The position numbers and the translations under genes are program-made. A model generated the notes under the pieces. It saw nothing but the letters and a program-made list of their open reading frames with translations. It searched no databases and was not told the DNA's origin. This document shows, in pieces, positions 14,554-57,253 of a stretch of DNA of 64,000 bases. Position 1 is the stretch's first letter; the number at the start of each line of letters is the position of its first letter. The DNA comes from Saururus chinensis. Lineage: Eukaryota; Streptophyta; Magnoliopsida; Piperales; Saururaceae. The stretch covers positions 3,410,001 through 3,474,000 of the forward strand of contig CP141145.1 of NCBI GenBank assembly GCA_035235625.1, in the 5' to 3' direction.

Positions 14554-14558
14554 TTATA

Positions 14559-19734: not shown

Positions 19735-19765
19735 TGGTCGGGGATCGATAGAGCTCCGATACCAA

Positions 19766-22654: not shown

Positions 22655-22793
22655 ATTTCAATAAATATATGTAAGTGGAGACCATTTCAATTTAGAACAA
22701 GTAGAGGCCATTGACTAAGTGAATATTGTGTTCAACTAAAAAATATCATAAATCAATGTGATTTATTTGTAAATTTTTAATAACTTTAAATAA

Positions 22794-24869: not shown

Positions 24870-26668
24870 TTAATAAATTTATTAAATATTATGGTAGGTA
24901 GAATCTCGAAGACCCATTGAAAACTATGTAAAAATATGTTTCCATACAAATGGTTAAAAAAAAAATGGTGTTGCATGCTTTGTCTAATTCCCCAAGTTAA
25001 AAGAATAGTGGATGATTTTTTATAATTTTCTTTTTCAATAAAATTTGAATAACAAATAAAACACCACATATAGATATTATTTATTGTTAAAATACTTTCA
25101 TAAATGTGATTTGATAAATGCTACATATTCTTGTAATCAATGACGCTTGTGGTGAGATCGTCATGATCATGAAAATGTAGGGACTTATTTGTTTGCTTGG
25201 GCTTTGTGGATATAGAGAAATTTCTCCCTTGAAACCCCACAAGTTTACCCCACTAGGAGATAACTTTTGTACTTTATTAAATAAGATAAAATATGTTGAA
25301 ATAAAAAAGCCGTGGTTAAGCATTTAAATAATAAATCAAATTTTGTAAAAATAAAATATATGTTCAAGAAAAATAGTTATAAGAAATCTTTGAAATAATA
25401 AATTAGATTTTTTAAGAAACATAGTATATGTTAAAGTATAACAATTATAAGTAAGTTTTTAAATAATAATTCGGATTTCATAAATATTTATTTATGTAAT
25501 GACTATTATTTTTACCCTAGTACTTTATTTATTTAATTTCGTCCTTCACATAGTAAGTTTGAGTGGGAAAACATATTTAAATAAAAGGTAAACTTTGAGC
25601 CCATCGTAGCTGTATCAAAAATACAAAAAACAGAGGTCGAGCGAAAAAGATATGATTTTTTAAAAATTTATTTGAATTTATTACAAATTTTTAATTAGAT
25701 GACCTGGGACACCACAAAACTGTAGATCGCATTTAGAGCCCCATTAAGGGCATTTTGGTCTGACCGTGCAAGTTCAAAGGTGTTACCTTCGTGTGACACT
25801 GTGTGTTTTGTTAAAAGCATATGTAATCTTCAATGTTCAAATAAAGGTGCTGCATCCTCGTGGGATCCACACCAAAGTACTATTGGGCACTTACTATTGT
25901 CCACTCTATAACTACTTTGTAGCACTTATTGTCATCCTCTGAATATCTACTTTGTAATTATGATCTGACACTTAGTGTTTTTATGGAAAAATATAACCTT
26001 TTATTTTTTTAAAAAATAGCAAAAACTAATTAAAGAGTGACAATTGAACTATTTTAAAAAATGGCTTGTATAAAAAAGAGCTAGAGTAAGAAAAAACTTG
26101 CACAAATTTTCAAGCAATTATAGTGTTTAGCAAACTAGAATTGTACATTATTAGTCTAGTCACAATGTGGTAGTATTTAGAGCATTGTAACATATTTATT
26201 AGTATTTACAATATTATAAACAAGTAACGGTTAACAGAAATAATTTTTCCAAACCTGTCCCAATTACGAAGCGGTTGTGTAAAATTACATGTTTGCTTAG
26301 CCAATGGGTAACTTTACCCATCCCAATTAATTTTATAATAGTAGTATAGGTGGTAGGGCAGGTAAACAATGGCGATTGGTGGTCCTACTCTTAGATCCCC
26401 CAAATCATTATTGCCTTGTACCCAAGTATGTACTAGTTAATAAATTCATTAAATATTAGGGTAAGTAGAATCTCGAAGACCCATTGAAAACTACGTAAAG
26501 AAAATGTTTCCATAAGGAAGGTTAGAGGAAAATGATGTTGCATACTTTATCTAGTTCTCCAAGTTAAAAGAACAATAGATGATATTTTATATTTTTCTTT
26601 TTCAATAAAATTTGAATAACAAATATAATACAATATTTATATCCTATTTATTGTTAAAAAACTTTCAC
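24870..26668 (-). repeat. R-family units, inverted, cut at 24870
   Basis: 24870-25580 is the reverse complement of R from 'ctaatatttaatg' back to its 'cacacccaaac' edge. 25680-26668 is a second unit, in order from the 'gatcccacgagg' block to 'ctttcataaatatg'. The second unit is interrupted by the large LTR element at 26674 and resumes at 39089. At 24870 R stops exactly at ...ttattaa and TNP2 begins. The R sequence that should follow (ctaccta...) is at 57254. Confidence 0.8.
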
Positions 26669-26673
26669 AAATA

Positions 26674-28609
26674 TGTAACACCCCCACCCGGGGGGTTTGG
26701 AAAACAAAATTGGAATAAATTAATTAATTTATAAAAACTGAAAATGAGACCAACAAAGAGCAACTGACTTTGTGTACGAGAGTCGTAATGTTCTTCTACG
26801 CACTATAAAGCTTTAGCTTTTCATGTTGCATAGGCAAGAATAAACTTAATTTTATAACTAATTTGGACAAGGCCAATGTTGCCTTACCGTGGGTTGCTGA
26901 CGTATGTATTGGACAACATTTACGAAGTTATTCCAATACAATCAATTTTGTACGGAGTTCTTCCTAAAAGCTAATATATGTATCAGGCATCACAAAAATC
27001 ACATACTTTAAAATATGTATATCCTTATATCCGAATAAATAATTTGGAGTAAATTGGAAATCTCATAAATTATTCGAGGTAAGACGAAATCTCTCACACA
27101 ACCCACTCTATCAAAGAGCATAGCAGAACACACCATAGAGAAAAATTGGATCATATTAGATCTCATTAGATTATATCAGATTTAATCCGACAATATTAGA
27201 TCATATAAGATTATATCAGAGCTTATCATATCAAAATCGAGTATTTCAAAGCAGATCAAATCAAAGCATAGCATATCATAACACATCATATTATAGCAAA
27301 TTATATATCTTAATTAATATATTAATATTACTAATTAAAATGCACGTGCATATAAGTCTTATCAAATAGGAAAGTTAGAAACATTTAATCCCGTGTAGTT
27401 TCATAAATAGCAGCGTTCGGAGTTGCCCGTTTCTTCAAGGTGTCCTCCCCTTCTGGTCTAGAGACAGCGGGCAAAACCTCCTCCTGCTCTGAAAAATTAT
27501 TCTCATTGCATCCAAAGGCAATAGATATAACCTCCCATTAACCTATGACACATTACACTTCCCCTCACCCGTAGGTAGTAGACAGAACCTCCACTACCCG
27601 GAGACACTTCTCTCTCAACATGCTCATAGGCTACGGACATACCCTCCCCTTACCTAGAGACTATTTCTAATTTATGAACCTGTAAGCTACAGACAGAGCC
27701 TCCCCTTAACTCGGAGATGTTTCTCTCATTGCGTGGCACTTCGGTGGAGGACAGAGCCTCCCCTACTTTAGGCCACTTCTCTCTCTTTAGAGCTCGAGGG
27801 CAACAAACAAGGCCTCCTCTTTCCCAAAGATGTCCCCCCTTATATGGTTGCGAACTCAAGGAATAGACACTCCCATAGCGTAGAACACCCTTAAATTAGT
27901 TAAAAATGAATATTAAAAGGACAAAAGTAGACTCAAAACAAACCAAAAAACTCTCCCGAATGATTGGACAAAATTCTGAATTTATAGGAGAATCCTGCGA
28001 ACGAACGGGGAGAAAACACACATGCACGAATAGATGCACGACATGCTTCATGCATCCGTGATGCACCATCGCAAACAGAATGCATGCACGGAGCGGTGTA
28101 GAGCGCTGATGGCAATATGATCGCCCTAGCCCTGAGTCATGTGGATGGCCCATGGTCATGTGGGCCCTGTATTGAATGGTGCGGCAGGGCCCATGCACCG
28201 CTTTTCATTTGGCAGCCCAGCTCGGCTCACACTGCTGATGTCATCAATTTCATCTTTTTCTCTATTTTTTAATTATTATTCTAACTTCAAAATGCTATAG
28301 CTTCCTGCCCTGAAGTTGTAATTGTGCGTTCTTGGTATCGATGGACTTATATCGACAAACTCTTTAAAACTAAGCCACATATGGGAAGGTTATCCCGCAC
28401 TCTTAAAATAGGTTTCCGCCCATGAGACACACTTTCTGAAGTCATAACTTTCACTCCCAATGTCCGTTTCACGTGTTCTTTGATTCGTTACGCTCATTTC
28501 ATCGAGCTCTAATCAAATAAGGAGATTTCATCCCTTCAAATCCCCCTAAAAATTATATAATTAACCCTAACTCTTCGGGTTAGGCATAAATAGAAAATGG
28601 GTTGTTACA
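26674..28609 (-). repeat. LARD 3' LTR
   Basis: 1936 bp bounded by TGTAACA and its complement TGTTACA. It aligns with 35772-36595 plus about 38320-39088 and, in part, with 31679-32503. The open frames inside it (for example minus 27896-28198) have no domain and are not called as genes. Confidence 0.85.
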
Positions 28610-28626
28610 TTCTTCCCCCTTAAATT
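28610..28626 (-). other. LARD polypurine tract
   Basis: On the minus strand AATTTAAGGGGGAAGAA lies directly before the LTR start TGTAACAACCC. This is the usual plus-strand priming site and fixes the orientation of the element. Confidence 0.8.
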
Positions 28627-28688
28627 AATTGCGTCCTCGCAGTTTGCCTAAAAACACTCTTAAAACATAACATTAGAATATGAAGCTA

Positions 28689-29125
28689 ACATAATTTGAT
28701 TATTAAAATCGGATAACACTCAGATAAAACATTCAAAAATCTATATCTGATAGTTAATGTCAGATAACACTTTCAAAAATATAAATAGATAGTTAATAAT
28801 CGGTAAATACATTTGAAAGCAAGCAATATCTAATAGTTAAAGTCAAATAAAATATGCACAAATAGAATCCGATAATTCCTTGGATAAAACAAAACAAAAT
28901 CCAATAAATTATAATCAGATTAGACACTAGTAAACAAATTCCGATAGATAAAAATCGGATTTCACATTCATAAGAAAGATTTGATAATTTAAGATTAGAT
29001 AGAACATAATCTGATAATTTATGATCAGATAAAATACTTTAAACAAAATCCGATTAGTAATTTAAAATTAGATAAATCATAACATATAGAATCTAATTAT
29101 GAATTTATAATCGGATAAAACATTT
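28689..29125. repeat. Degenerate tandem repeat with ATCCGAT / ATCGGAT
   Basis: Roughly eight to ten imperfect units of about 40-50 bp, each with AATC(C/T)GATA-type and (A/G)ATC(G/A)GAT-type words flanking an AT-rich loop and a spacer like aaaacatttc. Neighbouring half sites are complementary, so each unit can fold into a small hairpin. Confidence 0.6.
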
Positions 29126-29159
29126 TTCAAAATTAGAGGAGATAAAATTAAAGAAGAAA

Positions 29160-29704
29160 ATTTAAATAACATATATTAGTGATGCAATTCATGAAGCGTT
29201 GCTAATATATTTTATTTTTAATTTTTAAATATTTTATTAAGCTATTATGGACGCTATTTAAAAAGCATCGCTAATAGATAAGCATAATTTTTTTATAAAA
29301 AAATATTTTATTTACGACATGTTTTTAGCATCGCTAATAGTACAACAAATTAGCAACACTTTTAAAAAAGTGTTGCTAGTATTAATACTATTTGCGAGGC
29401 TTGTACATAAGCGTCGCAAATAGTTCTAAATTTTTTATTTAAAACTTGTAACTATTAGGGACGCTTTATAGAAAGTGTCACTAATATTATAACTATTAGC
29501 AATGTTTTTATATAAGCATCCCTAATAGTACCATTATTTGAGATGCTTTACAAAAAGCGTTGCTATTAGTACTACTATTGTTGACGCTTTATAAAAAGTG
29601 TCGCTAATAGTTAATTTTTTTTGTGATGGTATGATATGTGCTGCAAATGGTAGTTATTAGCGATGCTTTTATTTGTGTCGCTACCAGTAATTTTTGTTGT
29701 AGTG
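29160..29704. repeat. CACTA-like end inside the LARD
   Basis: An array of AGCGACGCTTT / AAAGCGTCGCTAAT words ending tttttgttgtagtg at 29704, the complement of CACTACAACAAAAA. It matches the termini at 11309 and 49575. No opposite CACTACAA end is visible between 28610 and 29160, so only one end is present. Confidence 0.75.
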
Positions 29705-30432
29705 GCATGCTAGAAGCAATTATTTTTCCTGGTGGGTATCCAAACAGAGAGTGCACTAATAATCCCAGGTTTTTCCCCGGAACTACCCAGAGAGTGCACT
29801 TATTCAAAATATAATGCAATACATGTGAATTTAAAACCCCCTACATTGTAGTTGAGTTAAAATCTAAATTAATACTAAGCAAAACTCTATGAAAATAATT
29901 ATAATTTTTTTCATAAAATTGTTTGTCAAAAATGAATCATTTAATTTGATTCAGAAACATATGCAAAAATTGTCATTTCGTCAAAGTGATGAGAAAACCA
30001 GAGTTGTGATACCGAACGGCATTCCCCCCGACACTCATGGGGTGGCGAGAAGCTCAGAAGGATAGGCGCTTTCCTATGATGCTCCAAACCTATATGCACT
30101 TGTCAAAACTGATTATTTTTCTCAGTGGGTATCTATAGAATGCAAGCACCTACGTATCATTGTACGCATCATATCAGAATTTCTTTATTAGAAATAGATG
30201 TCAATCATAATCTTTTCAAAAGTCAATTGTAAATTTAAACATCCAACAGAAAAAAATTATTCGTTTGAAAATAGACTTTCTTAGAGTCTTTCTAAAATGA
30301 AATCAGCCAACAGGAAACAAACTTTCACATTTAAGCTAGGACCTACATTCTAGATTAAAATCACACTCAGAGCAAACCTTTCAAACTAAACTAGACTTGA
30401 AATTGAAATTTGTCTTAATACACTAGCAGAAT

Positions 30433-31105
30433 TAGCCTTAGAGCTATCCACTAACCCCTTGTGCCTCATACCATAAGTGTTTGATGGTTTCTCAAGAGTA
30501 ATTCTGCTTTATATCGAGACAACTTTACAATTTCAACTCACTTTTCAAAATAGAGAGGATTTAGACTTAATTTTAATGACAAATCCACTAGTAGACTCAA
30601 CCTTAGAGCAGATTAATACTGCATGTCTCATAACATAACACGGGTATTTTGATGTTTCTCTTAGGGAATACCACGTCCTTATAACCAATTGAATTTAATT
30701 TCAACACACCAGTTGAACTAACCTGAGAGTGATCCACTAATACCACGTGTCCCATACCATGGGCATTTAGTGGTTCTTCCTAGGTATTCTACTATTCTTC
30801 CAAAAATGAACTCGCAAAATATAAATATTTTAAAATTGAATTTTATGTCAATATATCAGTAGAATTTACCGATCAACATTTCACTAACAACGCACATCCC
30901 ATACTGTGGGTGTTTAGTAGTTTCCCCTTAGCAACTTTACCGCCTTTTAAAATATATTAATTTTTTGAGCAAATGAATTTTTTGAAACAAACAGTTTGTA
31001 ATTGAATTTTATTTTCAACACTTAGGCAGAACTAAGTGTAGAACTATCCACTAACACCACACGTCCCTTACCGTGGGTGTTAGGTGGTTACCTTTTGGTA
31101 GTTCT
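30433..31105. repeat. Hairpin tandem repeat in LARD interior (unit 1 copy)
   Basis: Five diverged units of roughly 130-165 bp. Each carries a potential stem of the form CCACTAACACC...CCCATACC...GGGTGTTTAGTGG, between an AT-rich block containing GAATTTTATTTTCAACAC and a block like AGAACTAACCTTAGAGC. The best stems are near 30742-30783 and 31050-31092. A second copy of the whole array is at about 34675-35345. Confidence 0.75.
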
Positions 31106-31184
31106 ACCCACGTTTAAAACAGATTTGATTTATATCCAAAATATAATAATTTTTTTAATTGACAAACTCTTTGAAATCGAAGTT

Positions 31185-31530
31185 GCTAAAATTTAACGGA
31201 CTCAAAAAAATATTTCCAATGGATTCAAATTTAAAATCGGAATTCATAAAATTAGAGTTTAGATTAAATCCAATGCCACACACGTAAAATAGAAGTTCCA
31301 ATCATTCCTGATTTAAAAATCAAAATTCACAAAAGTAGTTCATCTTGAATCCAATGTAACACATACAAAGTGGAATTTCAAATCAAATTTGATATAACTT
31401 ATTCCGAATAGAATTTTCAAACAATTCATGAATAAAAATTAGAATTTATAAAATCGTAGTTCATATTAAATCTGATGTCATACATAAACAGAATATTCAA
31501 ATTCAATGTGACATAGACAGAACAAGAATC
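31185..31530. repeat. About 90-bp tandem repeat beside the primer site
   Basis: Three to four imperfect units with the order ATTCATAAAAT..GAGTTCA, AATC(C/T)(A/G)ATG(C/T)CA(C/T)A and (G/A)TAGAA(T/G)TTCAAAT. The counterpart in unit 2 is at about 35385-35690. Confidence 0.6.
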
Positions 31531-31599
31531 AAGATTAATTCTTATTTAAAATAGGGATTAAAATTAAATAACCATATATTATTAAAACATTTTCCTCTC

Positions 31600-31690
31600 G
31601 CACACAAAGAAAAGCTCTAATACCATTTGTAACACCCCGACTTTCCTCTCGTAGACAGAGAAAAGCTCTGATACCATCTGTAACACCCTG
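31600..31690 (-). other. Primer binding site with a small LTR-junction duplication
   Basis: The minus strand reads TGGTATCAGAGC at 31665-31676, a perfect match to the initiator-tRNA-Met-type site, directly after the LTR end ...TGTTACA. A roughly 50-bp piece containing the LTR edge plus primer site is repeated just to the left, where the site reads TGGTATTAGAGC (31613-31624). The equivalent in unit 2, next to the intact right LTR, reads TAGTATCAGAGC (about 35755-35769). Confidence 0.75.
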
Positions 31691-33767
31691 ACCCGGATCA
31701 GGGGGTTTGGAATATAAAATTGGAGTAAATTAATTAATTCATAAAAACCAAAATGAGTCCAACCAAGAGTGACGGACTCTGTGTGCAAGAGTTTGAATGT
31801 TCCTCTATGTACTATGGAGCTTTAGCTCTTTGTTACACATAGACCAGAACAAATCTAATTTTATAACTAATTTAGACAGGTCCAACGCTGCCTTACCGTT
31901 GGTTGCCTATACATATATTGGATATCATTTATGATGTTATTATAATACGATCAGATCCGAATGTAGTTCTACCTAACGACTAATACATGTATCAGGCATC
32001 ACAAAATTATATATGTTAAAATACGAAAATCCCATAAACCATCAGAGTTGAACAGAAGCTATTAAATCAATGGAATCACACATCCCATTCTATCGCAGAG
32101 CGGAACTGAACACACCATAGGGACAAGTTGAATCATATCATAGCCCATCAAATCATATTAGATTTCATCTGACCATATCATATTATATTGGAGCATGTTA
32201 GATCAAAACAATGTTATTCAGAGTATATCAGATCAAAGCAGAGCATATCATAACACATCATATTATATCAAATCATATATCTTAATTAATGTATTAATAT
32301 TACTAATTAAGATGCACATGCATATAATTCATATTACATTAGAAAGTCAGAAATGCTTACTCCCCTTTAGTTCAAGAAGTGGTGGTGTTCAAAGTTGCTC
32401 ATTTCTTTAAGGTGTCCTCCCCTTTAGGTCTAGAAACGGCAAACATAAACTTCTCTTGCTCTTGAACATTATTCTCATTGCGTTTGAAGGTGGTAGATAG
32501 AATAGAACCCGAGTTAAACGTATAATTGGGCCGTTTAAGTCATTTTGTAGGCTTGACTGTTTAAAGTTCCGAAATTAATATTTAAAAGCCTAATTAAGTT
32601 TCCTAAGTTAAGAGGATTGACCCAACCTCTAGCGGGATTAGGAACCCTAATCCCCATGCTTATAAAAGGGATTTTTAGGGCATAATTTAGGGGTCTTTGC
32701 CTGATGGGAGGGGAGAAGGTAGAAAACGGCGAGACTCTGGCAATGGATTGACAACAAATCAGCGATTAAGGTAAGATCGTTGTCGTTGTCTTCGAGTGAA
32801 GATTAAGGATGATTTTATTAAATAAATTTGGATGTAATTGGATTTCTCCAATTTTGTTATTTTGTAATTTACCTCAACAGTAACTGGTGTTCTGTAATTT
32901 TGTTAAAGAATAGTTTTTCGTAATTTGTTTTAATCCTGCCGGTTGGCTGCTGACCGGCCGGTCCTTGCACACTTGACTCCCTTAGCGAAGGGCTAGGATC
33001 TAGAATGTGGCCGACACTGGGCAGGTTGCTGTGCTGGTGCGCCGATAAAAAAACAAAACAAGGGGCGCCGACTGCACCGGTCCTTGAGGCACCTGAGCCG
33101 GATGGTTTTGACCACCGGACAACAACAAGATTGACCCTATCGGTTCCTACTTGCTCTGGCGGGTCGCAGGCACTGAGCTACCCACCCCTCCGCCGCAGTA
33201 GGGGGTGCCGCCGCCTAAGGCTGAAAGTCCTTTGGCCGGTCGCCGGGAAGATGACCCACGATGTGGGACGTCTGCTCCCTGGACCGGGTCGGGTAACCCA
33301 CCCGGTTTGGTCCAACTAAAAAAAAGAAAAACATAATATACTGACTGAACTGAATCCGGTTCAGTAGGAGAAAATAGTGAGAAAACTATAGAACAAGTTA
33401 TAAATGACCATGGGAGTATGAAGAATGCCCTGACCAAATTTTAGACAGGGGAAAAGTCCCAACAATTTTTAAACGACCAATTTACCCTTGTGAGTTGTAG
33501 CGTAGAATATAATTAATTACCAAACTTTGGGGTTCCAGTTCAGAGGGCTATGAGTAGATTAAAAAATTCAGAAAAATCTCAGTGAGATGTTAATGTGTAT
33601 CCTAAATTTGGACCAAGTCTCAATTCGGGGAAAAATCCCAACTAATTGATATTTAACTATTTTACCCCTAGGGTTAAGGCAAGATTGTTAATTGAACCGG
33701 GGTCCGTTCAAGGGGTTACGACCTGGTTAAACATCAAGAAAATTACCTCCAGTTCTTAACATCAAGG

Positions 33768-36700
33768 ACTATTAGGGACGCTTTTTAGAAAGCGTCGGTA
33801 ATATTACAACTATTAGTAACGTTTTTATATAAGCATCCCTAATAGTACCATTATTTGAGATGCTTTATAAAAAGCGTTGTTAATAGTACTACTATTGGTG
33901 ACGCTTTATAAAAAGTGTCGCTAATAGTTAAATTTTTTTGTGACGGTATGATATGTGCCTCAAATAATAGTTATTAGTGACGCTTTTATTTGTGTCGCTA
34001 ATAGTAATTTTTTTTGTAGTGGCACGCTAGAAGCAATTATTTTTCTTAGTGGGTATCTAGACAGAGAGTGCAATGATAATCCCAGGTTTTACCCCGAAAC
34101 TACCCACAGAGTGCACTTATTCAAAAATCTATGAAAATGATTATAATTTTTTTCATAAAATTGTTTGTAAAAAATGAATCATTTAATTTGATTCAGAAAC
34201 ATATGTAGAAATTGTCATTTCGTCCGAGTGACAAGAAAACCAGAGCTGTGATGCCGAACGATGTTCCCCCTAACACTCATGGGGTGGCAGGAGGCTTAGA
34301 AGGATAGGAGCTTTCATATGATGCTCTAAACCTAAATGCGCACGCCAAAACCGATTATTCTTCTTAGTGGGTATCTAGAGAATGCAAGCACCTGTGTATC
34401 ATTGTATGCATCATATCATAATTTCTTTATTAGAAATAGATGTCAATCATAATCTTTTCAAAAGTCAATCATAAATTTAAACATCCAACGGAAAAAATCA
34501 TTCGTTTGAAAATAGACTTTCTTAGAGTCTTTCTGAAATGAAATCAGCCAACAGGAAACAAACTTTTCACATTTAAGTTAGGACGTACATTCTAGATTAA
34601 AATCACACTCAGAACAAACATTTCAAACTAAACCAGACTTGAAATTGAAATTTGTCTTAATACACTAGCAGAATTAGCCTTGGAGCTATCCATGAACCCT
34701 CATATCTTATACCATAAGTGTTTGATGGTTTCTCTAGAGTAATTCTACTTTCTATCTACACAACTTTACAATTTCAAATCACTTTTCATAACATAGAGGA
34801 TTTAGACTTAATTTTCATGACAAATCCACCAGCAGACTCAACCTTAGAGCGGACTAATACTGCATGTCTCATAACACGGGTATTTTGATGTTTCTCTTAG
34901 GGAATGCCACGTCCTTATAACCAATTAAATTTAATTTCAACACACCAGTTGAACTAACCCAAGAATGATCCATTAATACCACGTGTCCCATAGCAGGGGC
35001 GTTTAGTGGTTCTTCCTAGGTACTTCCACTATTTTTCCAAAAAATGAACTTTCAAAATATAGATATTTTAAAATTGAATTTTATGTCAATATATCAGTAG
35101 AATTTACAGTACAACATTTCACTAACAATGCACATCCCATGCTATGGGTGTTTAGTGGTTTCTCCTTAACAACTCTACCGCCTTCTAAAATTTATTAATT
35201 TTATGAGCAAATGAATTTTTCGAAACAAACAATTTGAAATCGAATTTTATCTTCAACACATTGGCAAAACTAAGTGTAGAGTTATCCACTAACACCACAC
35301 ATCCTTTACTATGGGTGTTTCTGGTTACCCTTAGATAGTTCTATCGTTGTTTAAAACAGATTTGATTTACATCCAAATATTTCGAATGGATTCAAATTCA
35401 AAATCGGAATTCATAAAATCAGAGTTCAAATCAAATCTAATGCCACACATGTAAAATAGAAGTTCAAATCATTCCTGATTTAAAAATCAAAATTCACAAA
35501 AGTAGTTCATCTTGAATCCAATGTAACACGTACAAAGTGGAATTTCGAATCAAATTCAATATAACTTATTCGAAACAAAATTTTCAAATAATTCATGAAT
35601 AAAAATTAGAATTCATAAAATCGGAGTTCGTGTTAAATCTGATGTCATACATAAATAGAATGTTCAAATTCAATGTGACATAGACAGAACAAGAATCATG
35701 ATTAAAATCAAATAAGTATATATTATTAAAACATTTTCCTCTCGCAGACAAAGAAAAGCTCTGATACTATTTGTAACACCCGGACCGGGGGGTTCAGAAT
35801 ATAAAATTGGAGTAAATTAATTAATTTACAAAAACCAAAATGAGTCTAACCAAGGGTGATGGACTCTACGTGCAAGAGTCGTAACATTCCTCTACGTACT
35901 ATGGAGCTTTAGCTCTTTGTTACGCGTAGACCAAAACAAACTTAATTTTAGAACTAATTTGGACAGGTCCAACGCCGCCTTACCATTGGTTGCCTATGTA
36001 CATATTCGATAACATTTATGATGTTATTCTAATACGATCAGATCTTAATATAGTTCTGCCTAACTACAAATACATGTATCATGCATCACAAAATCATATA
36101 CGTTAAAGTACGGAAATCTCATAAATCATTAGAGTCGAATGGAAGCTATTAAATCAATGGAATCACACATCCCACTCTATCATGGAGAGGAGTAAAACAC
36201 ACCATAGAGACAAATTGAATCATATTAGATCCCATCAAATCATATCAGATTTCATCTGACCATATCAAATTATATTGGAGCATGTTAGATCAAAACAATG
36301 TTATTCAGAGTAGATCAGATCAAAGCAGAGCATATCGTAACACATCATATTATATCAAATCATATATCTTAATTAGTGTATTAATATTATTAATTAAGAT
36401 GCACATGCATATAATTCATATTAAATTAGAAAGTCAGAAATGCTTACTCCCCTTTAGTTCCGGAAGTAGCGGCGTCCAAAGTTGCTCATTTCTTCAAGGT
36501 GTCCTCCCCTTCAGGCTTGGAGACGGCAAGCATAACCTTCTCTTGCTCTTGAACATTATTCTCATTGCATTCGAAGGTGGTAGACAGAACCTAAGTTAAA
36601 TGTGAAATTGGGTCGTTTAAGTCATTTTACGAGCCCGACTGTTTAAAGTTCCGAAATTAATATTCAAAAGCCTAATTAAGTTTCCTAAGTTGAGAGGATT

Positions 36701-37850
36701 GACCCAACTTCTAGGGGGATTACGAACCCTAATCCTCATGCTTATAAAAGGGATTCTTAGGGCATAATTTAGGGGTCTTTGCCTGATGGGAGGGGAGAAG
36801 GTAGAGATTGGCGAGGCTCTGGCAATGGATTGACAACAAATCGGTGATTAAGGTAAGATCATTGCCATTATCTTCGAGTGAAGATCAATGATGATTTTAT
36901 TAAATAAATTTGGATGCAATTGGATTTCTGCAATGTTATTTTTTTGTAATTTACCTCAACAGTAACTGGTGTTCTATAATTTCGTTAAAGAGTAGTTTTT
37001 CGTAATTTGTTTTAATCCTGCCAATTGGCCACTAACCGGCCGGTCCTTGCACACTCGACTCCTTAGCGAAGGACTAGGATCCGGAATGCGGCCAACGCAG
37101 GGCAAGTTGCCATGCCGGTGAGTAGATAAACAAAACAAAACAAGAGCCACTGGCTATGCCGGTTCTGGAGGCACTTGAGCCAGACGGTTTTGGCCACAGG
37201 ATAGTAGAGGGATCGACCCTATCGGTTTCGCCCTGCTCTGGCGGTTCGGAGACACTGAGCCTCCCACCCCTCCGCTACAGTAAGGGGTGCCACCACCCAA
37301 GGCTGAACGACCTCTAGCCGGTTGCCGGGAAGACGACTTGCGATGCGGGACGTCTGCTCCCTGGACCGGGTCGGGAAACCCACCCGGTTTGGTCCGACTA
37401 AAAAAAGAAAAACATAATATACTGATTGAACCGGATCCGATTTAGTAGGAGAAAATAGTGAGAAAAATATAGAAAAAGTTATAAATGACCATGGGAGTAT
37501 GAAGTATGCCCTGACCAAGTTTTAGATAGGGGGAAAATCCCAATGACTTTTAAACAACCAATTTACCCTTGTGAGTTGTAGCGTAGAATAATAATTAATG
37601 ACCAAACTTAGGGGCTCCGATTCAGAGGCCTATGAGTAGATTAAAAAATTGAGAAAAATCTTAGTGAGATGTTAATGTGTATACTAAATTTGAACCAAGC
37701 CTCAAGTTAGGAAAAAATCGCAATAAATAGATATTTGACTGTTTTATCCCAGGGTTAAGGTTAGATTGTTAATTGAACCGGGGTCCGTTCAAGGGCTTTA
37801 CAACCTGGTTAAACATCAAGAAAAATACCTCCGGTTCTTAACATCAAGGA
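33768..37850. repeat. Tandem duplication, unit 2
   Basis: A direct copy of 29451-33767 with scattered substitutions and small deletions; for example, about 85 bp corresponding to 29803-29890 is missing. Unlike unit 1 it continues past ...aggacta into the rest of the nested LTR, so the right edge of unit 2 is the original sequence and the junction at 33768 is the new joint. Confidence 0.9.
34675..35345. repeat. Hairpin tandem repeat in LARD interior (unit 2 copy)
   Basis: The duplicate of 30433-31105. The stems are kept in several units (for example near 34974-35012 and 35122-35162), although the bases between them have changed. Confidence 0.7.
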
Positions 37851-39088
37851 CTACCACTGAGATTAGTTTTGGACCTATTAGGTTTTAAAAAAGCCCAGAA
37901 CAAAATGGTAGAAATACCTTTATGAATGGACCAGCCCGCATTCGCGTAAATGAAGTTGACGTGCCAATGTGATTTTGAAACCTCTTAACAAGTTAAAGAT
38001 TTACTCGAGAACAGAGAGGACCATATCTAATGTTGGATAATTACTTTAATGCCTTATATGCATTATAACCAGTTTTCATGAAGATTTAATAATTTGTACT
38101 TAGAGGGTTAACCTGCTATTTTTTAAATTTTCACACGTGTAATAATATCATATGTTTTGATTTTCATATTTGTGAACCCCGATTATCACAACTTGGATAT
38201 TTCATTCGATTGATTTGAAGTAATTAAAAAAAATCAAAATTTATCTTGTGTCCTTTATTTAAAAAGGGTTTTGAAAATCTAGGTCGTGACACAACCACAA
38301 AAGAAAAAACCTCTTCTTGCTCCAGTCCACTTTTCTCTCTCTTCGGGGCTCAAGGGCGATGGGTAGAGCCTTCTTGCCCGGAGACATTGCCCCCTTATAA
38401 GGTTGTCAACTAAAGGAATGAATGCTTCCATTGCATAGAACACCCTCGAATTAGCTAAGAGCGCCTCTTGAACGGTCAAAAATGAACTCACCATGAACAA
38501 GAAAACTCTCCTGAAAGATTGGATGGAATTCTGAATTTCTAGGAGAAACCTGCAAGCATACGGGTGGAAAAACACACAACACATGCACATAAGCTCAAGA
38601 CCCATGCTCGTCCGTGACGCGCCATCGCGGAGGACGCGTGCATCATGTGCGACTCCCTACATACACCATGCATCGCAGCTCGGCTTGGCTCGCGTTGTTG
38701 ACATCATCAGTTTCATTTTTTTTTATTATTATTCTAATCAAGTATTATTCCAACTTCAAAACACGATAACTTCCTACCCCAAAGTCGAAATTATGCATTC
38801 TTGGTAGGGATGGACTCATATCGACGAGCCATTTAAAAATGGACTACACATGTGTAGTTTATCCCTCACTTTTTTAAGTGAGTCCTGCCCATATGACACA
38901 CTTCCAAAGGTCATAACTTTCACTAAATCTTAAGCTCAATTTTGCATATCTTTTATTCATTACGCTCCTTACTTTGAGCTCTAACCAAATACAGAGATTC
39001 CATCCCTTGAAACCCCTAAAACTTAACTAAAAATTATATAATTACTCAACTCTTCATATTATTCTTAATTAGAAAACATGTCATTACA
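35772..39088 (-). repeat. LARD 5' LTR, interrupted by another LTR
   Basis: 35772-36595 and about 38320-39088 align with the first and last parts of the left LTR; the middle is replaced by the nested LTR at about 36596-38300. A partial duplicate of the first part lies at 31679-32503. Confidence 0.8.
36596..38300 (+). mobile_element. Nested solo LTR of a different retroelement
   Basis: About 1.7 kb ending ggtcgtgaca near 38291, with a TATA-like cttataaaaggg near 36739 and a following GC-richer leader. It resembles plant LTRs bounded by TGTCACGACC on the other strand. No internal domain is attached. The start is uncertain (TGTGAAATTGGG at 36601 is the best candidate) and I could not find a convincing target duplication. 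A truncated duplicate is at about 32503-33767. Confidence 0.55.
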
Positions 39089-40933: not shown

Positions 40934-40979
40934 TTCTAGGGCTTTGCCGCGCCTTGGAGTTGCAAAGGAAGAGGTAAAA

Positions 40980-46250: not shown

Positions 46251-46536
46251 TGCAGCAGTAAAAACATACAAAAAATCATTAAAGAATAAAGAATTGGGGG
46301 CATGCTCATCTATCTACACAATTATTTGAATGTGATAACAGTAACTCTAATAAAGATTTGTCTGTTAACAAAATCTAAACCAATGAAAAAGAAATGACAC
46401 ACTCACGTGCCTATGAAAACTTAGCTGAAGTATCTCTATAAATGTTGAGTAAATCTTCCCTATATCTATGGCCTTCACATACTTTAATTCTTGAACCAAA
46501 TACCTACACCACAAAGGATGCTGAGGATATAGGAAC

Positions 46537-47990
46537 AGTAGAATAACACTATTGTACCATTCTCACTGACGCCACATCGACGCATTGTTCACAATTTTGA
46601 TGACCAAAAATCGCATGCCTGTAAATGCATGCATGCTTAAGCATTATTCATCTTCTTCCTCTTGACGGTTCAACCATCGACATATATGTGACTTTAGCGT
46701 TGATCATAATCATGCCCAGATGCCCTCTTTACATTAATTTATTTAGTCCCATATCTGTGTGCCTGGGCTTTGAGAGATAGACGGTGTAAGGAGGCATGCA
46801 ACTTACCTGCCTTCTTAGTTATGTGTCATTGGATCAAAATACGATGTCCTACATAAATGGGGCTCATGTTGACGTGCATGATGCGATCTCACAGAAAAGG
46901 GACTGAACATATTAGTAATTTATTTTTTACAAAGATGCAACTTTAACCCTATGAGTTATGATATCATCATCAAAAATTTCCATTGAAAGCTTCAACTTCA
47001 GTTTTTATCAAAGCAATTTACAATTGTATGTAGCTCGTGCTTGCATTTTCTCACAAACTTGGTTACTAGTTAACCTCTAACATTCAGCTTCTAATTGTGG
47101 CAATTGAGCCTCACTTGATACTCTTACCTAAATTTTCATACAATGTTCTACATACTTTTGTTTATCCTTGCACATTTCCACACCCAAAATTCTATCAAAG
47201 TCATTTAATATTTCACTTGATAGGAATAATGCTTGTTATAATGACGTTCCTCTATTGTTTGCAGCCTTTTCAAGCATATGCTTTCTTGCCTCATTCACCA
47301 TTTCATCTTACCTCAGTCTCTTATCGTTAAATTGAGACTCTTTTGTTTGATTGATAGCTCTAGCCTCAACTTGCTTTCTCTTCCACAAGCATCATCTTAC
47401 TCCCCATATAAAAATAAATTTCATCTATGTATTGTAAGAACATATGTGTCATATGTATAGTTATTAGCTAATTTCTTTGTCAAAATTATTTTAAAAACCT
47501 TATATATTTATTGAGTTTTAGAATCTAATTTGAGGTTAATATGGCCGAGTTAGCTTTAGAATTGACAGACTTAAAAAATAAGATCAGATGTGTTCTTATT
47601 GATCACATTTGCATACAAACATGACTTAGAGGAGTTTCATAAGTAATTTTAATGGTTTCAGATATTTTTAGGGTAAAAAAGGTAAAATTATAAGTAGAAC
47701 AATCGATCACTACACATAAGGAAGAACAGAACAATTGATTGCACCTTGATTAAGCTCTGTGCGAAATGAAGCCAAGAGTTATATATCAATTTCTCTCGTG
47801 AATTGATCTGTCACTTGGAGTATCATGTTCATAACAAATAGTGAATGATTGATCACTATTTGGAACGATCAATCCTTTTAAGGACAGGCCACCATAATTA
47901 AGACATTCCAATTTCAATTTCATTTCTTATTTAAGTACAAGTCCTAAACAAAAAAAAGAGCTATATAAGGGTTATAAATTCATGAAATTT
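46537..47990 (+). repeat. Z-family repeat, complete copy Z1 with an empty CACTA site
   Basis: 46537-47260 aligns with 48872-49574 and 47258-47990 with the reverse complement of 10541-11308. The uninterrupted junction cctctattgTTTgcagcc (TTT at 47258-47260) is the pre-insertion form of the CACTA target. The small open frames here (47097-47330, 47278-47460) are not supported as genes. Confidence 0.88.
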
Positions 47991-48439
47991 TAACTTTTAA
48001 TGATCATTGAATCCTCCTATCTTACGTTGTGTAGGACCAATAATCTTTTAATCCACTAGTCCATTTAAATATGACTCTTGGCCCAGGGAAGCGATTTCTA
48101 CATAACTCCCATTTTTAGAGAGCTGGAAGACTTTGATCCTTTTTCATACCAGCCCCCTTTTGTCTACGTAGCTAATGACTCACTTTTGGAGCGAAGGCAT
48201 CAAGAGTTCCTATGACCATAGTTGCCTATGCATGGTCTTTTGGATACCCATTCATCATAATGAATAGTCTCATACACATGCATTGAGGATTATAACCCTT
48301 AGGTAAAATATGCATAAATGATCTTTCATCCACATCACATATCATATAAAAAACCATGCTATATTGATTATAAATATTATAGAAAACATTAGCTATATTG
48401 CTAATGAAATCCAAATTCATATATTCCATCAGCAACCGT

Positions 48440-48871
48440 GCCAAGATGTCGATGACCCCATTGATGACCAGCAGTGAACTCATCGACACGTTGAACCTTG
48501 TCAACAGTGACTATGAGGTTCATCACAAATGTCATGGATGGGTTGATGACTTTGTCGATAACCATCAGTGATTCATTGATGTGTCAAACCTTACCGACAA
48601 AAACTATCGGTGATTTACAAACAGGTAGACACCCTCCCTAATAACCATCAGTGAGTTCACTGACGTATCGACTATCACTGACAAATATATTAATATGCAT
48701 TAGTGACTTCATATAGAGGTCGACACCCACACCAATAACTATTGGTGAGTTCATTGACATGTGGACTATCACGGACACAGATATAAATCTCTATCTATTA
48801 CTTTTACTAATGTGTCAATGCCCTCACCGATAACCATCAGTGAGTTCACCGACACGTTGAACCCTACCAAT
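48440..48871. repeat. Short tandem array with ACCATCAGTGAGTTCA
   Basis: Five or more imperfect units built on GATAACCATCAGTGAGTTCA followed by CCGACACGTTGAACC-like words, with inverted versions (for example ACTATCGGTGA near 48602). It resembles the subterminal region of another CACTA-like family and lies directly before copy Z2. Confidence 0.6.
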
Positions 48872-49574
48872 AGTGGAATAACACTATTGTGTTATTCTCA
48901 CCGACGCCACATCAATGCATTGTTCACATTGTTTATGACTAAAAATCGCATGTTTGAGCATTGTTCAAATTTTCCTCTCATCAGTTCAACCATCGACATG
49001 TTGGTGACTTTACCATTGATCATAATCATGCCCAGATGCCCCCTTTACATTAATTTCTTTAGTACTATATGTGTGAGCCTAGGCTTTGAGAGATCGACGG
49101 TGTAAGGAGGCATTCAACTTGCATGCCCCCTTAGTTATGTGTGTCATCGGATCGAAATCCGATGTCCTACATAAATGGGGCTCATGCTAACGTGCATGAC
49201 CCTATCTCACATAAAAGGGACTTAATATATTAATAATTTTTTTGACAAGGATGCAACTTTTACCTTATGAGTTACGATATCATCATAAAAAATTTCCATT
49301 GAAGGCTTCAACTTTGAATTTTATCAAAGCTATTAACAATTGTCTGCAGCTTCTGCTTGCATTTTCTCACAAACTTGGTTACTAGTTAACCTTTGGCATT
49401 CAACATCTAATTGATAATTGAGCCTCACTTGATACTCTTACCTAAATTTTCATACGAAGTTCTACATACTTTTGTTTATCCTTGCCCATTTCCATAGCCA
49501 TAGTTCTATCAAAGCTATATAATATTTCCCTTGATAGGAACAATGCTTGTGATAATGACATTCCTCTATTGTTT
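48872..49574 (+). repeat. Z-family repeat, left half of copy Z2
   Basis: It matches 46537-47260 throughout and ends cctctattgttt exactly at the CACTA terminus. The right half of this copy is found inverted at 10541-11308. Confidence 0.88.
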
Positions 49575-50110
49575 CACTACAACAAAACTGGGTATTAGCG
49601 ACGCTTTTATTAACGACTCAATTAAAAGCATCGCTACTAACTATCATTTGCAACACTTTGTAAAGTGTCACAAATAAATTGTACATTTAGCAACGCTTTA
49701 CTAAAAGCATCACTAATAATATACTTTTAGCGACACTTTTTGTAAACCGTCACTAAAAGGTGGGTTTTTAGTGACACTGAACTCAAAGTGTTGCTACAAG
49801 TACATTAGTAGCGACGCTTTTGGTAAAGTGCCGCGACAAGATGGCTTAGTGGCTACACTTTACAGAAAGTGTCGCTACAAGTTCGCTTAGTAGCGATGCT
49901 ATATAAAAACGTCGCTCTAAGTTATATTTTAATTTTTTTTAAAAATAACTATTAGGGACAGTTTTATAAAGTGTTGCTACTGAGGATACTTTTAGTGACG
50001 CTCAATGAGAAGCGTTGCTACTAATGATACTTGTAGCGACTTGTTTAAATAGTGTCACTAATAAGCTAACTTATAGCGACACTTTACAAAACTATCACTA
50101 ATAGTTACTT
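49575..50110. repeat. CACTA terminus with subterminal repeat array
   Basis: CACTACAACAAAAC then many direct and inverted copies of TTAGCGACGCTTT-like words, the same motif as at 11309-11945. Confidence 0.88.
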
Positions 50111-53100
50111 TAAAATTAATTTTTAAAAAAAAATAAGAACACAATGTAAGCCCAACCTATTCGAAGGTTTAAAGATGTGATAATGTTTTGATATACTAAG
50201 AATAATTTGTTAAAAAGTTATGATAATCTGATAATTTATATAATAGAATTGAATAATATAAATTATGAAATACATAAATTAATAAAATTCTTAAATAATT
50301 ATTTTTTATATTATATAAACTTTTTTAAAAATTAACTCTTTATTAGTACTAACCTAGCCTGACATAAGAACCAAAACTCATGATACACTTGGGTCAGGTT
50401 AGTCGAGTTTTGTAGGACCTGACTTGAGATATGAACCGAGTCTGTTGGACCTAACCTGACATAAGAACCAAAACTCATGAACCAACTCAACCCGAAATAA
50501 GAAATTTAAAACTTGAAAACTAAAATAAGCACCGACATTCCATTTTAGGTCATTCGGGTAGATTCTTTGGTTTTCACGTGATAGACCTAAGCCAACTTGA
50601 CCTAGAACAAGACCCAACCGGAGCCAACTTGACCCACTTGTACCGTATAGGCGTATAGGGCTTTCAATGTAGGCATATACTTGAACATTTAACTTCGACG
50701 CATACCCATATGATAATTGATATTGTCATCCATATTAATATGGCTTTCCATGGATGATTGTATTTGCCCAAACTCAAGTTATATACAACATAAAATTTTA
50801 AATATTTTCCATTAAAGAAATAGGTTAAAATGGGTCATGCTATTATATATATCATGATGAAAGAATTATTTTTTATAATTACATATAAAATTATTATTTA
50901 ATTTAATAATTTATTTCTTAAAATTAAATAATATAAATTATGAAATAATTAATTTAATATATTATTTAATAAAATTATTAAATAATTATTTATTATGCTA
51001 TATAATAAATTTATTTAATGTGTAAAAAATAACTATTTACTAGTACTATTAAATTATATCAATATAAATATAATGAAAAACATTACTACTATGGTAACAT
51101 GAAGGCTTGCAACTTATTAATCTATTTATGACCATAGCATTATTAATTTGTAAAAATAGTGTTATTCTAACTCTTGTCCATCAACACTCGATGTTAGTGA
51201 GAAAGTTGAGTCGTCGAGCTTGGGTTGGGTTATCTAAAGCCAAAATATATTTCCATTTAAGAATAATAACTTGTCAACCTGATCCAATTCAAATATTTAG
51301 AAAACTTAAAAATTAACCTTATTATGAAAATAAATAAAAATAAAATTTTAAATAATTATATATTTATTTTATCTTATTTAACTTGTTAAAATTTTGAGAG
51401 CTAGTAATTATAAAATTAAAAAGTAAATTATATAAATTAAAAAATTATATATAACTTTATTTGAGTACGGATACAAGTTTACTCAATCACATATAACTAC
51501 AACAATCACAAACGAGACCCAACGACATCTTTTGATAAGTATTGAGTTAATTTTTGGCAAACGAATCACTTCCTTGTATGGTTAAAATATATTTTCTTTG
51601 TATTGTCAAACCTTAGATCGAACGACCTATAATGCATGAGTTCTTACATGCAGTACACTTAATTATGTTGTCAGATTTTGATGTAACAACTTATGATGCA
51701 TGGGCCTATGTGCGACTATATATAAACTATATGGATGACAATTAAGTGGATGTATATAGTATAACCTGTACGATTCGATCAGGATCAAGTTAGATTTTTT
51801 TAAAATAATTTTTAAAATTAATTGACTAATTACCAAAATAAATACATATTTATAAAATTTATCTATTAACCATATAAATTTTATATGGTAAAATTTTAAA
51901 TTAAAAATATAAAATTTTGGTAAAAAAAGTTTAGGTGAGTGCCCTAGGCTCTAATCAGTTGTACTATGTTTATTCAAGTTTTAAAGTAATATGCATCATT
52001 GAATCTAATTTTCTGGGCTAATTGTGTATACACTTAATTATGTTTTTTGATTTTGATGTGACAACTTATGATGCATGGGCCTATGTGCGATTATATATAA
52101 ATTGTATGGATGACAATTGGGTGGATGTATACATAAAGTATGGCACGCATGTTTTGGTCAGGATCAAGTTAGATTTTTTTAAAAAATAATTTTAAAAATT
52201 AATTGACTAATTACCAAAATAAATTCAAATTTATAAAATTTATCTATTACCCTTATAAAATTTATAAGATAAAATTTTAAATTAAAAACATAAAATTTTG
52301 GAAATAAAAGTTTAGATGAGTGCATGCCCTAGGCTCTGAGTTGTGCTACGTTTACTCAAAGTCTTAAAGTAATATGTATCTTTGAATCTAAATTTTCTGG
52401 GCTATAGAGCTTGGACTCGAGCAACTGTGCATGAGCCGGAACTCAGCTAAATATACTTAATTGATTAGTGGCAAGTTGAATCCCTTTGAACAGAGAACTT
52501 GGTTAAAATAGTTAATATAAAATATAACAGTATTTGCTATCTTAGAGCATTAATTTCTCTTACATGGTTAAATATTAACCATAAAGATTCGTATCACATG
52601 ACCCTAGATGACCTAGGCTCATTTATATTACAATTAGCTCAGCATTATAAGTGTTAGATTTTAATCGAAAAGACAAATTTTAATATAATGATTCATGGGC
52701 CCATGTAGAATTGCTCCTTCAAAATTTTCTTAATAAAGCCTAAAATAAACCGGCAATCCTTCCCCCTAAAAAAACGAGCTCCCGCTCCCACTCCCACTTT
52801 TTGTGTCTCACGTTTTCATCTACTGAAAATAGATACGCTATATCTTGCAAGCAATGGTATCTCTAAGAATCGTATGAAATAAAATTTAACCCTAACTAGA
52901 CTGGGAATCCTACGATGAAGAGGAGTTGCACGCTGCGGAGGGATTTCTTCACGTCGGCCAGAAAATAGTTCAAGTAGACTGAGTTTTCTAGTAATTTTTT
53001 TTTTAATTTGATACTTTTCATGAAACTTTTTCTTCCATATTCATTTTTCAATTAGTAGAATCTAAATCTTCATTCCATATCCTATATTGGCCAGAAAACC

Positions 53101-55671
53101 AACGAATTCGTATATGCTTTCAGCATCCAAGTTTTCTCAAAGCCCAGATTTCTTCAGAGTCCAGAAATTCTTTAATGTCAGAAATTTATTCTCAGAGTTG
53201 ATTTTAGTTTCCGAATACTAAATAATAGTGCATATAGACTTGAACAGGTCTTTGATTTAACAAAGTCGTCTAAGTGTCTAGCTCATCTCGCTCGTTTCCT
53301 CTTTAGTCGACGTTATGAAGGCTATACTTTACATCGAAGACTAGCAGTGCAGGGAACAGAGGTGTGTTCTTTTGCTTAACTGTTGAATTTGAAGTTTTGA
53401 ATAGATTTAGTTATATACCACCAAACTATCTTGCAATCTAAATATGATGGTATTAAACTCTGAGCACATCAGTTCTTCTGTTTGTAAGTTGTTCTATGAA
53501 TTCCCAAGGGACTTTAACTTTGATATTGTTGTAAGTAAGGTGTGACTCTGTTATACACCAAACACTGATTTATGCATCTTTATGGTGGACTTTTGGCAAT
53601 TTTTTAGAAAAAGTTCCTTTAATGAGGAATAATTAAGACATAGTATTAATATGATGTGTTAAAATAATTATTTTAACTTGTGCAGTGTTTTAATTGGCAA
53701 TATAATCAGTTTTATCTTTGAAAATGTCTAATGCGTGTTTTTTTGTTTAATTTTTCCATACTCTATAGTTGGCCTACCTCCGACACCAGCAATCTCCCTT
53801 CGTCGTCATATATATTTTAAAACAATAAAAGCCATGCATTATGAGTGCAGAGACTAAGTAAAATCTGGAACCATTATGGCCATATATAGCTTCTAGACTA
53901 TCTACTGGAATGCTAAAATGAAAGTCTGATTTTAAGACTTAATCTGAAGAAATTAATTGAAAATTTTGGAGTATTTCAAGAGCCCCTAGAGTTGAGCTAT
54001 TGGAATTGAATCATGTTCAGCAGAAAATTATGAGATATCCCTGCATGCCATAGTTACAATATATATTTTTAAGATTGTAATGATCATAAATTACATAAAT
54101 ATGCTTGTAATGGGCAATTGTAAGCACATATCAATTACATGATGTTCATAAATAGGGTAAAATATCACATAATCACTTTGATAGATTATGAATTCTATGC
54201 ACTGGATTACGAATATCAAAACATTACTCTGATAATCCACTTTTAATAACTGCAGGAGGAAAAGGGGCGGCACCTATGCAATTCTTAATCTCCTTCAATG
54301 CTCTTTGGTAGTTTCCAGCATTTGGTAATTTACTGGGACCTTCCATTCCTTTAGCTTTGCAAATTTAAAAAGTTAAACAATAAAAAGCAATGGACTAAGA
54401 ACTTTGAAATTGAATGTATACCAGAAATTTCTTTCCTTTTTGCTCATGGATTGGGGCTATGAACTGTGGATTCAGTTTTGTGCTTTTTCTGTAAAACTTC
54501 ATGGTTTTGAAGGCAGCTTGTGGATTCAAGCTTGTAAACCACTGTTCGTCTAGTAATTAATAGAGAACACCACTCTTCTTCCCCCAAGGTGCCAAAAAGC
54601 ACCAGATACAACCAGCCAGCCCACATCACCCATTCTCTTCATTTTGATCTCATCTATCTCTTGTTAGCAAAAGAAAAACAGTCTCTATCTCTCTCTCTCT
54701 CTGCCCACACCAATGTCAATATGCATGAGAAATAATTGGCCTACTGCCTGTCTCGTTGGAGCATCTACAGTCTACGCAGACTCTATTCTACCAATGGATT
54801 TTTTTGTTCTAACCTATATGCAATTTAATTTTTACGTCGGAGATGACTCATTCTGTTGGTGTGCCCTTTTTCTGTACCTTTTTTATATATGGGTTTAGTA
54901 ATAAGCGATATTGCCTCTCTTCTCTTGCTTTTGTTTCTTTCAGAATAGTTCAAGACTCTCCAATTGATCCATGCATGATGCAACTTCTGTGTTTTCTCAG
55001 AGATGGGTCCCTTCTATCTTATTCTCAGTCGTTTGGAAAGACTAAAAATGAGGGGGATGCTCTTGTGCCTTGCAAGTGTCTTCAGTGTGTGTACGAATAT
55101 TTGTTACATGCTCACATCCCTAACAGTATTAATCCTTCCAAGAGGACTATTCCCCAATATACAAAAATTAGACATTATGCAGAAGATTTTTCACAAAATA
55201 ATATTTCTATTGCAACAAATTCAACAGCAATATTTTAATTAATATGCTATAAGGAGTCTACATTAGGCATCTTCCATTCTCATTATTATTTGTGCCAACA
55301 AACTCCTCCATTTCAGTTAAGAACTATTAAAAGAAATCACAAGAACAAATGTATAAATCATATTTTTGTCAACTAAAAAATAGCTTTCAACAACTGACTG
55401 CTTTTAACTTTATGCCATTGCCTGCTTTTTATATGCATGAAGTTACTTTAGTAGATATAGTGGTGGATAAGGTACATTTGGGTGGTCTAAACGAGGAGGA
55501 ATGCTTCTTTGATGCATTTGCTATACACAGGGTAGAGGACAAACATCTTAGGTAAAAGGAGCATAGGTAATTTGTTTCCTCTGTCTATTTCTTGTTTCTA
55601 AAACTCCAATGTCATGAAAAATATTTACGATTATCTTTAATTATGATTTAGTTGGCTAATTGTAGACGACT
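50111..55671. other. CACTA 5' leader region, mostly AT-rich
   Basis: No recognised gene. Contents: two copies of cctgacataagaaccaaaac about 104 bp apart (50352 and 50456), a direct duplication at 51656-52400, a less AT-rich patch at 52740-52990 that may hold the promoter or first exon of TNP2, and a short (TC)n run at 54686-54703. Open frames at 54843-55238 and 55349-55555 have no recognisable domain. Confidence 0.45.
51656..52400. repeat. Direct tandem duplication of about 370 bp
   Basis: The unit starts cacttaattatgtt at about 51656 and again at about 52031. It includes ttatgatgcatgggcctatg, gatcaagttagattttttt, gactaattaccaaaataaat and ccctaggctct. The copies differ by scattered changes and small indels. 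Confidence 0.8.
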
Positions 55672-57253
55672 ATGGATAAAAGTTGGATGCTTCTACCAAA
55701 TAGGTATCTGTTGTCATACATTGAAGGAATTAAAAAGTTTATTGATATGGCAAGCCCACGTACAGATAGTGCCAACAGATGCAGGTGCCCATGTAGGAAA
55801 TGCGTTAATAGATACTATAAACATATTAGTGAGGTTGAAGAACATTTGTTGGCCAATGGAATGGACATCTATTATACTCATTGGAAGCATCATGGAGAAC
55901 CTATGTCTTCAACAAAGGGTGGTTTTAGCAACATTATTAATGATGAACCAGTTGATGGGATGGAAGAAATGTTAAAGACATATGGGTCGGATCTAGTGTT
56001 GATGTCCATGCCTCAAATGTTGTCCAAAGGGAAAATCCTAGCATAAGTGATTCTAATGACCTTGAAAGTGGTGATTTAGGTGAATTTGGTAGACTATTGA
56101 ATGATGCAAAGTGTTCACTTTATCCAGGCTGTGAGAAAATCTCCAAGTTGAATTTTCTTGTGAAGTTGCTTCATATAAAGATAATTAATGGTTGGAGTAA
56201 CAAATCATTCATTATGAACAATGAGTTGTTTAAAAATACAATGCCGGATGGGGAGACTTTGCTGACCTCGTATTATGAAGCAAAGAAGTTAATGTGAGGC
56301 TTAGGAATAGGATATATCTCAATCCATGCATGCATAAATGATTGTGTACTATTTTGGAAAGAGAATGAAAAAAGACAAGTTTGTCCCACATGTCACCAAC
56401 CAAAATATAAAGAATGGACAAAGAAATGACAGGAAAATGTAAGAAATTCCTCTTAAGGTACTTAGGTATTTTCCTTTAAAACCTAGGTTGCAAAGACTAT
56501 TTATGTAAAGAAAGATTGTTGTAGATATGAGATGGCACAAAGATAAGCAAGTTATTGAAAAAGATGTATTTTGGCATCCAGCAGATTCCAATGCTTGGGG
56601 AGGAATTTGACAAGGAGCATGAGTGGTTTGTTCGTGATCCTCGCAATGTGAGACTTGGTCTATGACGAATGCATATAGCATGTGGCCTGTAATGCTCATG
56701 CCTTATAATTTGTCTCCTTGGAAATGCATGAAAGATCCATTCATTTTTATGTCATTGCTTATTCCTAGGCCTAAAGCTCCAAGAAATGACATTGATGTAT
56801 ATTTGTGGCCACTCATAGATGAGTCAAATGAGTTGTGGGAAACTAGGATTGAGACAAATAATGTGGTGGCAATTAAAAAATTCAAAATGCATGCAGCAAT
56901 GATGTAGGCTATAAATGACTTCCCCGCTTATGGAAACTTGTCTCGATGGAGCACTAAGGGTTTTTTGCCATGTTTAGCTTGCAATAAAGATGTTAGCTAT
57001 GAAAGATTGAAGCAAGGTACAAAGACATCTTACATGGGACATTGTCGTTTCCTGCTACACAAGCACTATTTACAATTTCGGTATAAGGAGAGATATAACG
57101 GGAAGTCGTAATTGAGGTCAAAGCTGTTACAATTGTCTGGGGATGACTTGTTGTCACAGTTGAAAAATGTGAGGCAGGTTGTATTTGGGAAGGGACTAAA
57201 CAACAAGAAAAGGAAATGTACTAAGGGGGAGTTAAATTGGACAAAAAAGAGTA
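55672..57253 (+). pseudogene. CACTA TNP2 transposase, N-terminal half
   Basis: It starts MDKSWMLLPNRYLLSYIEG at 55672, followed by the cysteine pair region CPCRKCVNRYY and HLLANGMDIYYTHWKHHGEP. After a frameshift near 55975 it continues LLNDAKCSLYPGCEK, LVKLLHIKIINGWSNKSF and GETLLTSYYEAKKLM (56090-56297), then VCPTCHQPKYK. The block MPYNLSPWKCMKDPF, DIDVYLWPLIDESNELWE, NDFPAYGNLSRWSTKGFLPC and YMGHCRF follows (56700-57060). It ends at NWTKKS (57234-57252), where TNP2 proteins continue with FFELPYW. In-frame stops occur near 56296 and 56906. Beyond 57253 the sequence is R repeat. Confidence 0.9.

Follow-up and report, generated by a model that had tools for sequence, protein, structure and literature searches.

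Our results support one balanced inversion with two breaks as the probable origin of the present order in the window, the 64,000-nucleotide stretch of Saururus chinensis DNA analysed here. Reversing positions 24870-57252 restores the TNP2 gene of a CACTA transposon, a border within a complex repeat that we call R, the target-site duplication (TSD) of the CACTA element and the site of its insertion. The segment measures 32,383 bp when base 57253, an ambiguous A, is left outside. An earlier sequence-only reading had proposed a single two-break inversion with both breakpoints readable almost to the base. The joints were confirmed at 24869/24870 and 57252/57254, and the proposed inversion, which would account for both joints, the shared CACTA TSD and a paralogue that preserves the empty insertion site, is borne out by all of them. 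The joints were read from a single assembly, and each fits its partner within 0-3 bp. That both breaks belong to one event we infer on grounds of parsimony. The best explanation overall is very probably that two double-strand breaks were joined crosswise and that the ~32-kb segment between them was thereby reversed. The features involved are listed in Table 1.

Table 1. Positions, strands and basis of the features discussed, in window coordinates
Feature	Position	Strand	Basis or remark
Inverted segment	24870..57252		32,383 bp with base 57253 (A) left outside; 57253 ambiguous
Left joint: TNP2 C-terminal half (-) to T end of R	24869..24870		Read from sequence
Right joint: TNP2 N-terminal half (+) to H start of R	57252..57254		57253 = A, from either side possible
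TNP2 N-terminal half, decayed (Transpos_assoc, Transposase_21)	55666..57252	+	Pfam; tblastn
TNP2 C-terminal half, decayed (DUF4218, weak DUF4216)	22797..24869	-	Pfam; tblastn
CACTA 5' part, starts with tip CACTACAACAAA, TTT before	49575..57252	+	Tip scan, flank alignment
CACTA 3' part, tip at 11309, TTT after (minus strand), nested gypsy inside	11309..24869	-	Tip scan, flank alignment
Left flank of CACTA insertion (repeat W, part 1)	48869..49574	+	84% to 46534-47260
Right flank of CACTA insertion (repeat W, part 2)	10544..11308	-	77% (11313-10544) to 47253-47990
W paralogue without CACTA (empty site)	46534..47990	+	Self-comparison, alignment
R repeat T-H-X-T, orphan T end at 24870	24870..26673	-	Self-comparison, motif inventory
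R array H-T/H ... inverted H-T-U, orphan H start at 57254	57253..60195	+	Self-comparison, motif inventory
Separate R copy U-T-H-X, T/H border ~1521	521..2281	+	Self-comparison, motif inventory
LTR element, 12,415 bp, TG...CA, TSD AAATA	26674..39088		Sits in R copy inside inverted segment
Terpene synthase gene pieces, inside inverted segment	41904..44397	+	Domain matches from 42620; before 42620 own reading, no family match

The two TNP2 stretches read as complementary halves of one protein that was cut once. On the plus strand, Transpos_assoc (4.6e-22) and Transposase_21 (3e-28 and 2.9e-17) were matched within 55666-57108; on the minus strand, the C-terminal half matched DUF4218 (1.1e-27 and 1.6e-13) and, below the family cut-off (26.7 vs 30.6 bits), DUF4216, both between 24434 and 23254. 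These matches come from a Pfam scan of ten stretches: five reached or exceeded the cut-off of a family, one matched below the cut-off and four matched none. Such complementary domains on opposite strands agree with the earlier view that a C-terminal half with FFELPYW and an N-terminal half with NWTKKS meet R at the two joints. A protein search with the part of TNP2 around the break returned 3114 relatives with E <=0.001, the first of them from Persea americana and 60% identical (120 of the 3114 are listed). Among the 120 listed, 28 did not fit the motif and were left out; the gap between NWTKKS and FFELPYW, previously put at about one residue, is exactly one residue in all 92 readable homologues that were kept, this residue being Ile in 89, Val in 2 and Thr in 1. 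Six homologues chosen from the 120 listed were aligned by tblastn. In the window as it stands, each of the six matches in two parts on opposite strands; reversing the segment brings all six onto one strand in collinear order, with a match that spans the joint. The flush join after reversal of 24870-57252 reads ...NWTKKSFFELPYW..., in frame and one codon short. The sequence-only reading had suggested such a reversal in silico as a check (of 24870-57253); as run on 24870-57252, it makes R, too, collinear within one base.

At joint 1, read on the minus strand, ...TTTATTAA is followed directly by TTCTTTGAATTACC, with the end of R at 24870 and the first base of FFELPYW at 24869. At joint 2, read on the plus strand, ...AAAAAAGAGT (NWTKKS) extends to 57252, an A stands at 57253 and CTACCTATTACACAC runs from 57254. 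TNP2 and R share 0 bp of homology at joint 1 and at most 1 bp, the A, at joint 2. The loss from TNP2 is 2-3 bp, since three bases are missing, or two if the A at 57253 is the first base of the codon, and R has no visible loss; the suggested loss of about two TNP2 bases and the possible one-base overlap at the second joint both stand, the A being assignable to either side. Staggered breaks would leave sequence duplicated at both joints, and by our reading of the joints no inverted duplication of breakpoint sequence is present there, save possibly the one A. Local folding of the DNA at four stretches of joint DNA was no better than that of shuffled sequence (z 0.68, 1.43, -0.19 and 1.72), so no local hairpin accounts for the break sites, and hairpin-prone break sites were ruled out.

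The ancestral order is also marked by evidence that is independent of the TNP2/R joints: the TSD of the CACTA element and the paralogue that keeps the empty site. The tip CACTACAACAAA occurs at 49575 (+), upstream of the TNP2 N-terminal half, and at 11309 (+), downstream of the C-terminal half; past the first 12 bases the identity between the tips is poor. The scan for CACTA tips gave many other loose matches, and this pair was chosen for its exact shared 12-base tip and for facing the TNP2 halves correctly. A third 12-base tip, at 29693 (-), lies within the 12.4-kb LTR element and was set aside. A TSD of 3 bp is typical of CACTA elements, and in the reversed-back order TTT stands on both sides of the element, with one copy in the paralogue. 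The paralogue is continuous through the insertion point (CTCTATTG...TTTGCAGCC), and the joined flanks carry exactly one extra TTT. As the window stands, the right flank in repeat W lies ~38 kb from the left flank and on the opposite strand. Repeat W itself occurs twice in direct orientation (46534-47990 and 48869-49574), ~2.3 kb apart. In a control, the flanks joined minus one TSD scored 336 against the paralogue and the single flanks 160 and 182; with random partners, none of 500 reached 336, the highest score being 277. The flanks have one TSD in common and together make up a single site, and so demonstrate that the two halves come from one insertion, that the CACTA element was once whole and that the present order is derived. 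Two independent CACTA copies, one per half, were rejected since the flanks form one insertion site, and the same holds for the second complete copy that the sequence-only reading had named as a possible separate source of each half.

R was divided by self-comparison of the window into modules named U, T, H and X. T passes into H at the border TTATTA(A/G) followed by CTAC(C/A)TA at 1521, 58262 and 59072 (-), and at 26437 (-) the same border lacks four bases. Intact R copies with ttattaa followed by ctaccta had been pointed out near 1515 and 58255; T/H borders are indeed found there, and those at 59072 (-) and 26437 (-) come in addition. A motif inventory of the window (<=3 mismatches) gave T ends and H starts in equal number, five of each, the only orphans being one T end and one H start, at 24870 and 57254. 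Matches to the T end at 24865 and 26432 (+) were dropped as palindromic reverse readings of counted sites; five more (50961, 51003, 50967, 50280 and 47972) were judged AT-rich chance and dropped. Four candidate H starts (7310, 35892, 31805 and 28324) were also put down to chance and left out. Once the segment is reversed, the H start at 57254 directly follows the T end at 24870, and the two align in register with the borders at 1515, 26437, 58262 and 59072; this virtual border exceeds the others by a single A, which could be from TNP2 or an added base. One 955-bp match (82%) to the 59072 copy crosses the restored joint. In the corresponding control, the joined pieces scored 397 against the 59072 copy and the pieces alone 217 and 188, and of 500 partners drawn at random from the window a single one came up to 397, with a score of 437, this being the target copy itself (58943-59092). 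An inverted repeat lies within the R array at 57656-59685, beside the right joint, with arms of ~670 bp that are 82% alike and ~680 bp apart. A reading in which 41529-41584 and 60291-60346 are the terminal inverted repeats bounding a single giant R element was dropped: 41530-41601 also matches 59581-59655 (72%) inside R and so may be a short internal repeat.

The events that we propose would have begun with one break inside the TNP2 gene of the CACTA element, where NWTKKS-I-FFELPYW has its Ile codon, and another ~32 kb off, inside the R array, between TTATTAA and CTACCTA; crosswise end joining of both breaks would then have reversed the segment between them. The R stretches at the segment ends are inverted and 81-84% alike by self-comparison, and when compared in inverted orientation, 24870-26673 and 57253-59720 share identical runs of 27 bp at most. 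Recombination between long repeats would place the joints within long shared homology, and TNP2 and R share none there. Joint homology of 0-1 bp, a TNP2 loss of 2-3 bp and inverted R identity of at most 27 bp make end joining the best account. It is the better-supported mechanism and the one that we favour, by inference from these values, as the sequence-only reading had preferred it to recombination between long repeats.

Against this explanation stand the extra A at the virtual R border, the folding at the break sites, no better than in shuffles, and the position of the break in R, exactly between modules T and H; for a random break, such a position arouses some suspicion. The T/H border could be a recurrent break or cleavage point, the unrecognised end of an element; cutting by that element, combined with a break that arose in TNP2 by chance and left no target duplication, would then have made the inversion in place of two random breaks. 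We consider this improbable. Another possibility is that an R unit (H...T) first entered TNP2 and that later recombination with an inverted R ~32 kb away flipped the segment, in which case the joints would be old insertion ends. The joints do lie exactly at module borders, inverted R copies do stand at both segment ends (24870-26673 minus, 57253-58262 plus), and an exchange might have occurred while these copies were younger. However, they now have the divergence given above, with no more than 27 identical bases running inverted, and there is no TSD, TNP2 being 2-3 bp short with none duplicated; for want of a TSD, an insertion of R into TNP2 was disfavoured. Moreover, T runs straight into H at four other borders, and module U precedes T in both the 1515 and the 59072 copy (521-1107 vs 60195-59577), so that T/H looks like the interior of R and not like the end of an element. 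We consider insertion of R followed by recombination improbable.

Alternative transposition, in which a transposase cuts the adjacent, outward-facing T end and H start of two R units and inserts them into TNP2, would also produce an inversion, and it predicts the joints that are seen, a T end against TNP2 and TNP2 against an H start. Such an event should leave a duplicated target site, whereas 2-3 bp of TNP2 are missing. The H start (CTACCTA) is also unlike the T end read backwards (TTAATAA), and the R copies hold no open frame of at least 130 aa, although the transposase could have come from elsewhere; we regard this origin as very improbable. A flip of the segment by the assembler is conceivable in a region so rich in inverted repeats, but an error driven by repeats would be expected inside shared repeats, and here both joints pair unrelated TNP2 and R. 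The joints are moreover reciprocal to within 0-3 bp and the window contains no N. Assembly error is therefore an unlikely source of the order, and the chance that we would allow it is minimal.

The insertion of the CACTA element into repeat W preceded the inversion. A gypsy LTR element at 14559-20103, with minus-strand pol, matches to reverse transcriptase and integrase and an LTR pair that is 93.9% identical, is nested in the CACTA 3' part between copies of a 5-bp duplication, TTATA. Joining the flanks of the 12.4-kb LTR element at 26674-39088 restores R. Neither element dates the inversion, and dating it by the 93.9% identity of the gypsy LTRs was dropped since the sequence does not give the order of gypsy insertion and inversion. 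Within the 12.4-kb element there is a tandem duplication of 4.3 kb (29451-33771 and 33768-37853, 86-91% alike), and three stretches, starting at 26671, 31676 and 35769, are related; another tandem duplication (38425-39601 and 39837-40933, 87-94% alike) takes in the end of the element and part of R. This element and the terpene synthase lie inside the segment, as had been stated before. The terpene synthase domains fall within 42620-44397 (Terpene_synth, 2.7e-22, at 42620-43033; Terpene_synth_C, 5e-37, at 43684-44397), and a DDTYD stretch is present in the gene pieces. Elsewhere in the window there are remains of a Mutator-like transposase (4406-6005; DBD_Tnp_Mut and MULE domains) and of a Copia-type reverse transcriptase (62547-62987; RVT_2).

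From a single sequence, each end of the inversion is here placed to within three bases; an empty site supplies the ancestral order, and the order of events can be read as well, CACTA insertion and then inversion. The terpene synthase would have been turned round along with its neighbourhood. The combined test of a split transposon and an empty site could serve for other single assemblies, with no need for a second genome.

The event is of an ordinary kind, a clean and well-supported example that holds no surprise. Its CACTA element resembles other elements of the En/Spm (CMC) group in its CACTA tips, its 3-bp TSD and the order of Transpos_assoc, Transposase_21, DUF4218 and weak DUF4216 in TNP2, and differs in being decayed, in carrying a nested gypsy element and in having been split by the inversion. 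With ectopic recombination between inverted repeats the window shares the inverted R copies at both segment ends; in contrast to that mechanism, the joints here lie outside the shared repeat, and no long identical tract now exists between the compared copies. The closest likeness is to balanced inversions produced by two breaks and end joining, which have the same reciprocal joints, near-zero homology and loss of a few bases. From these the inversion described here does not differ in any essential way, but it is unusually readable, having cut a transposon whose empty site is known.
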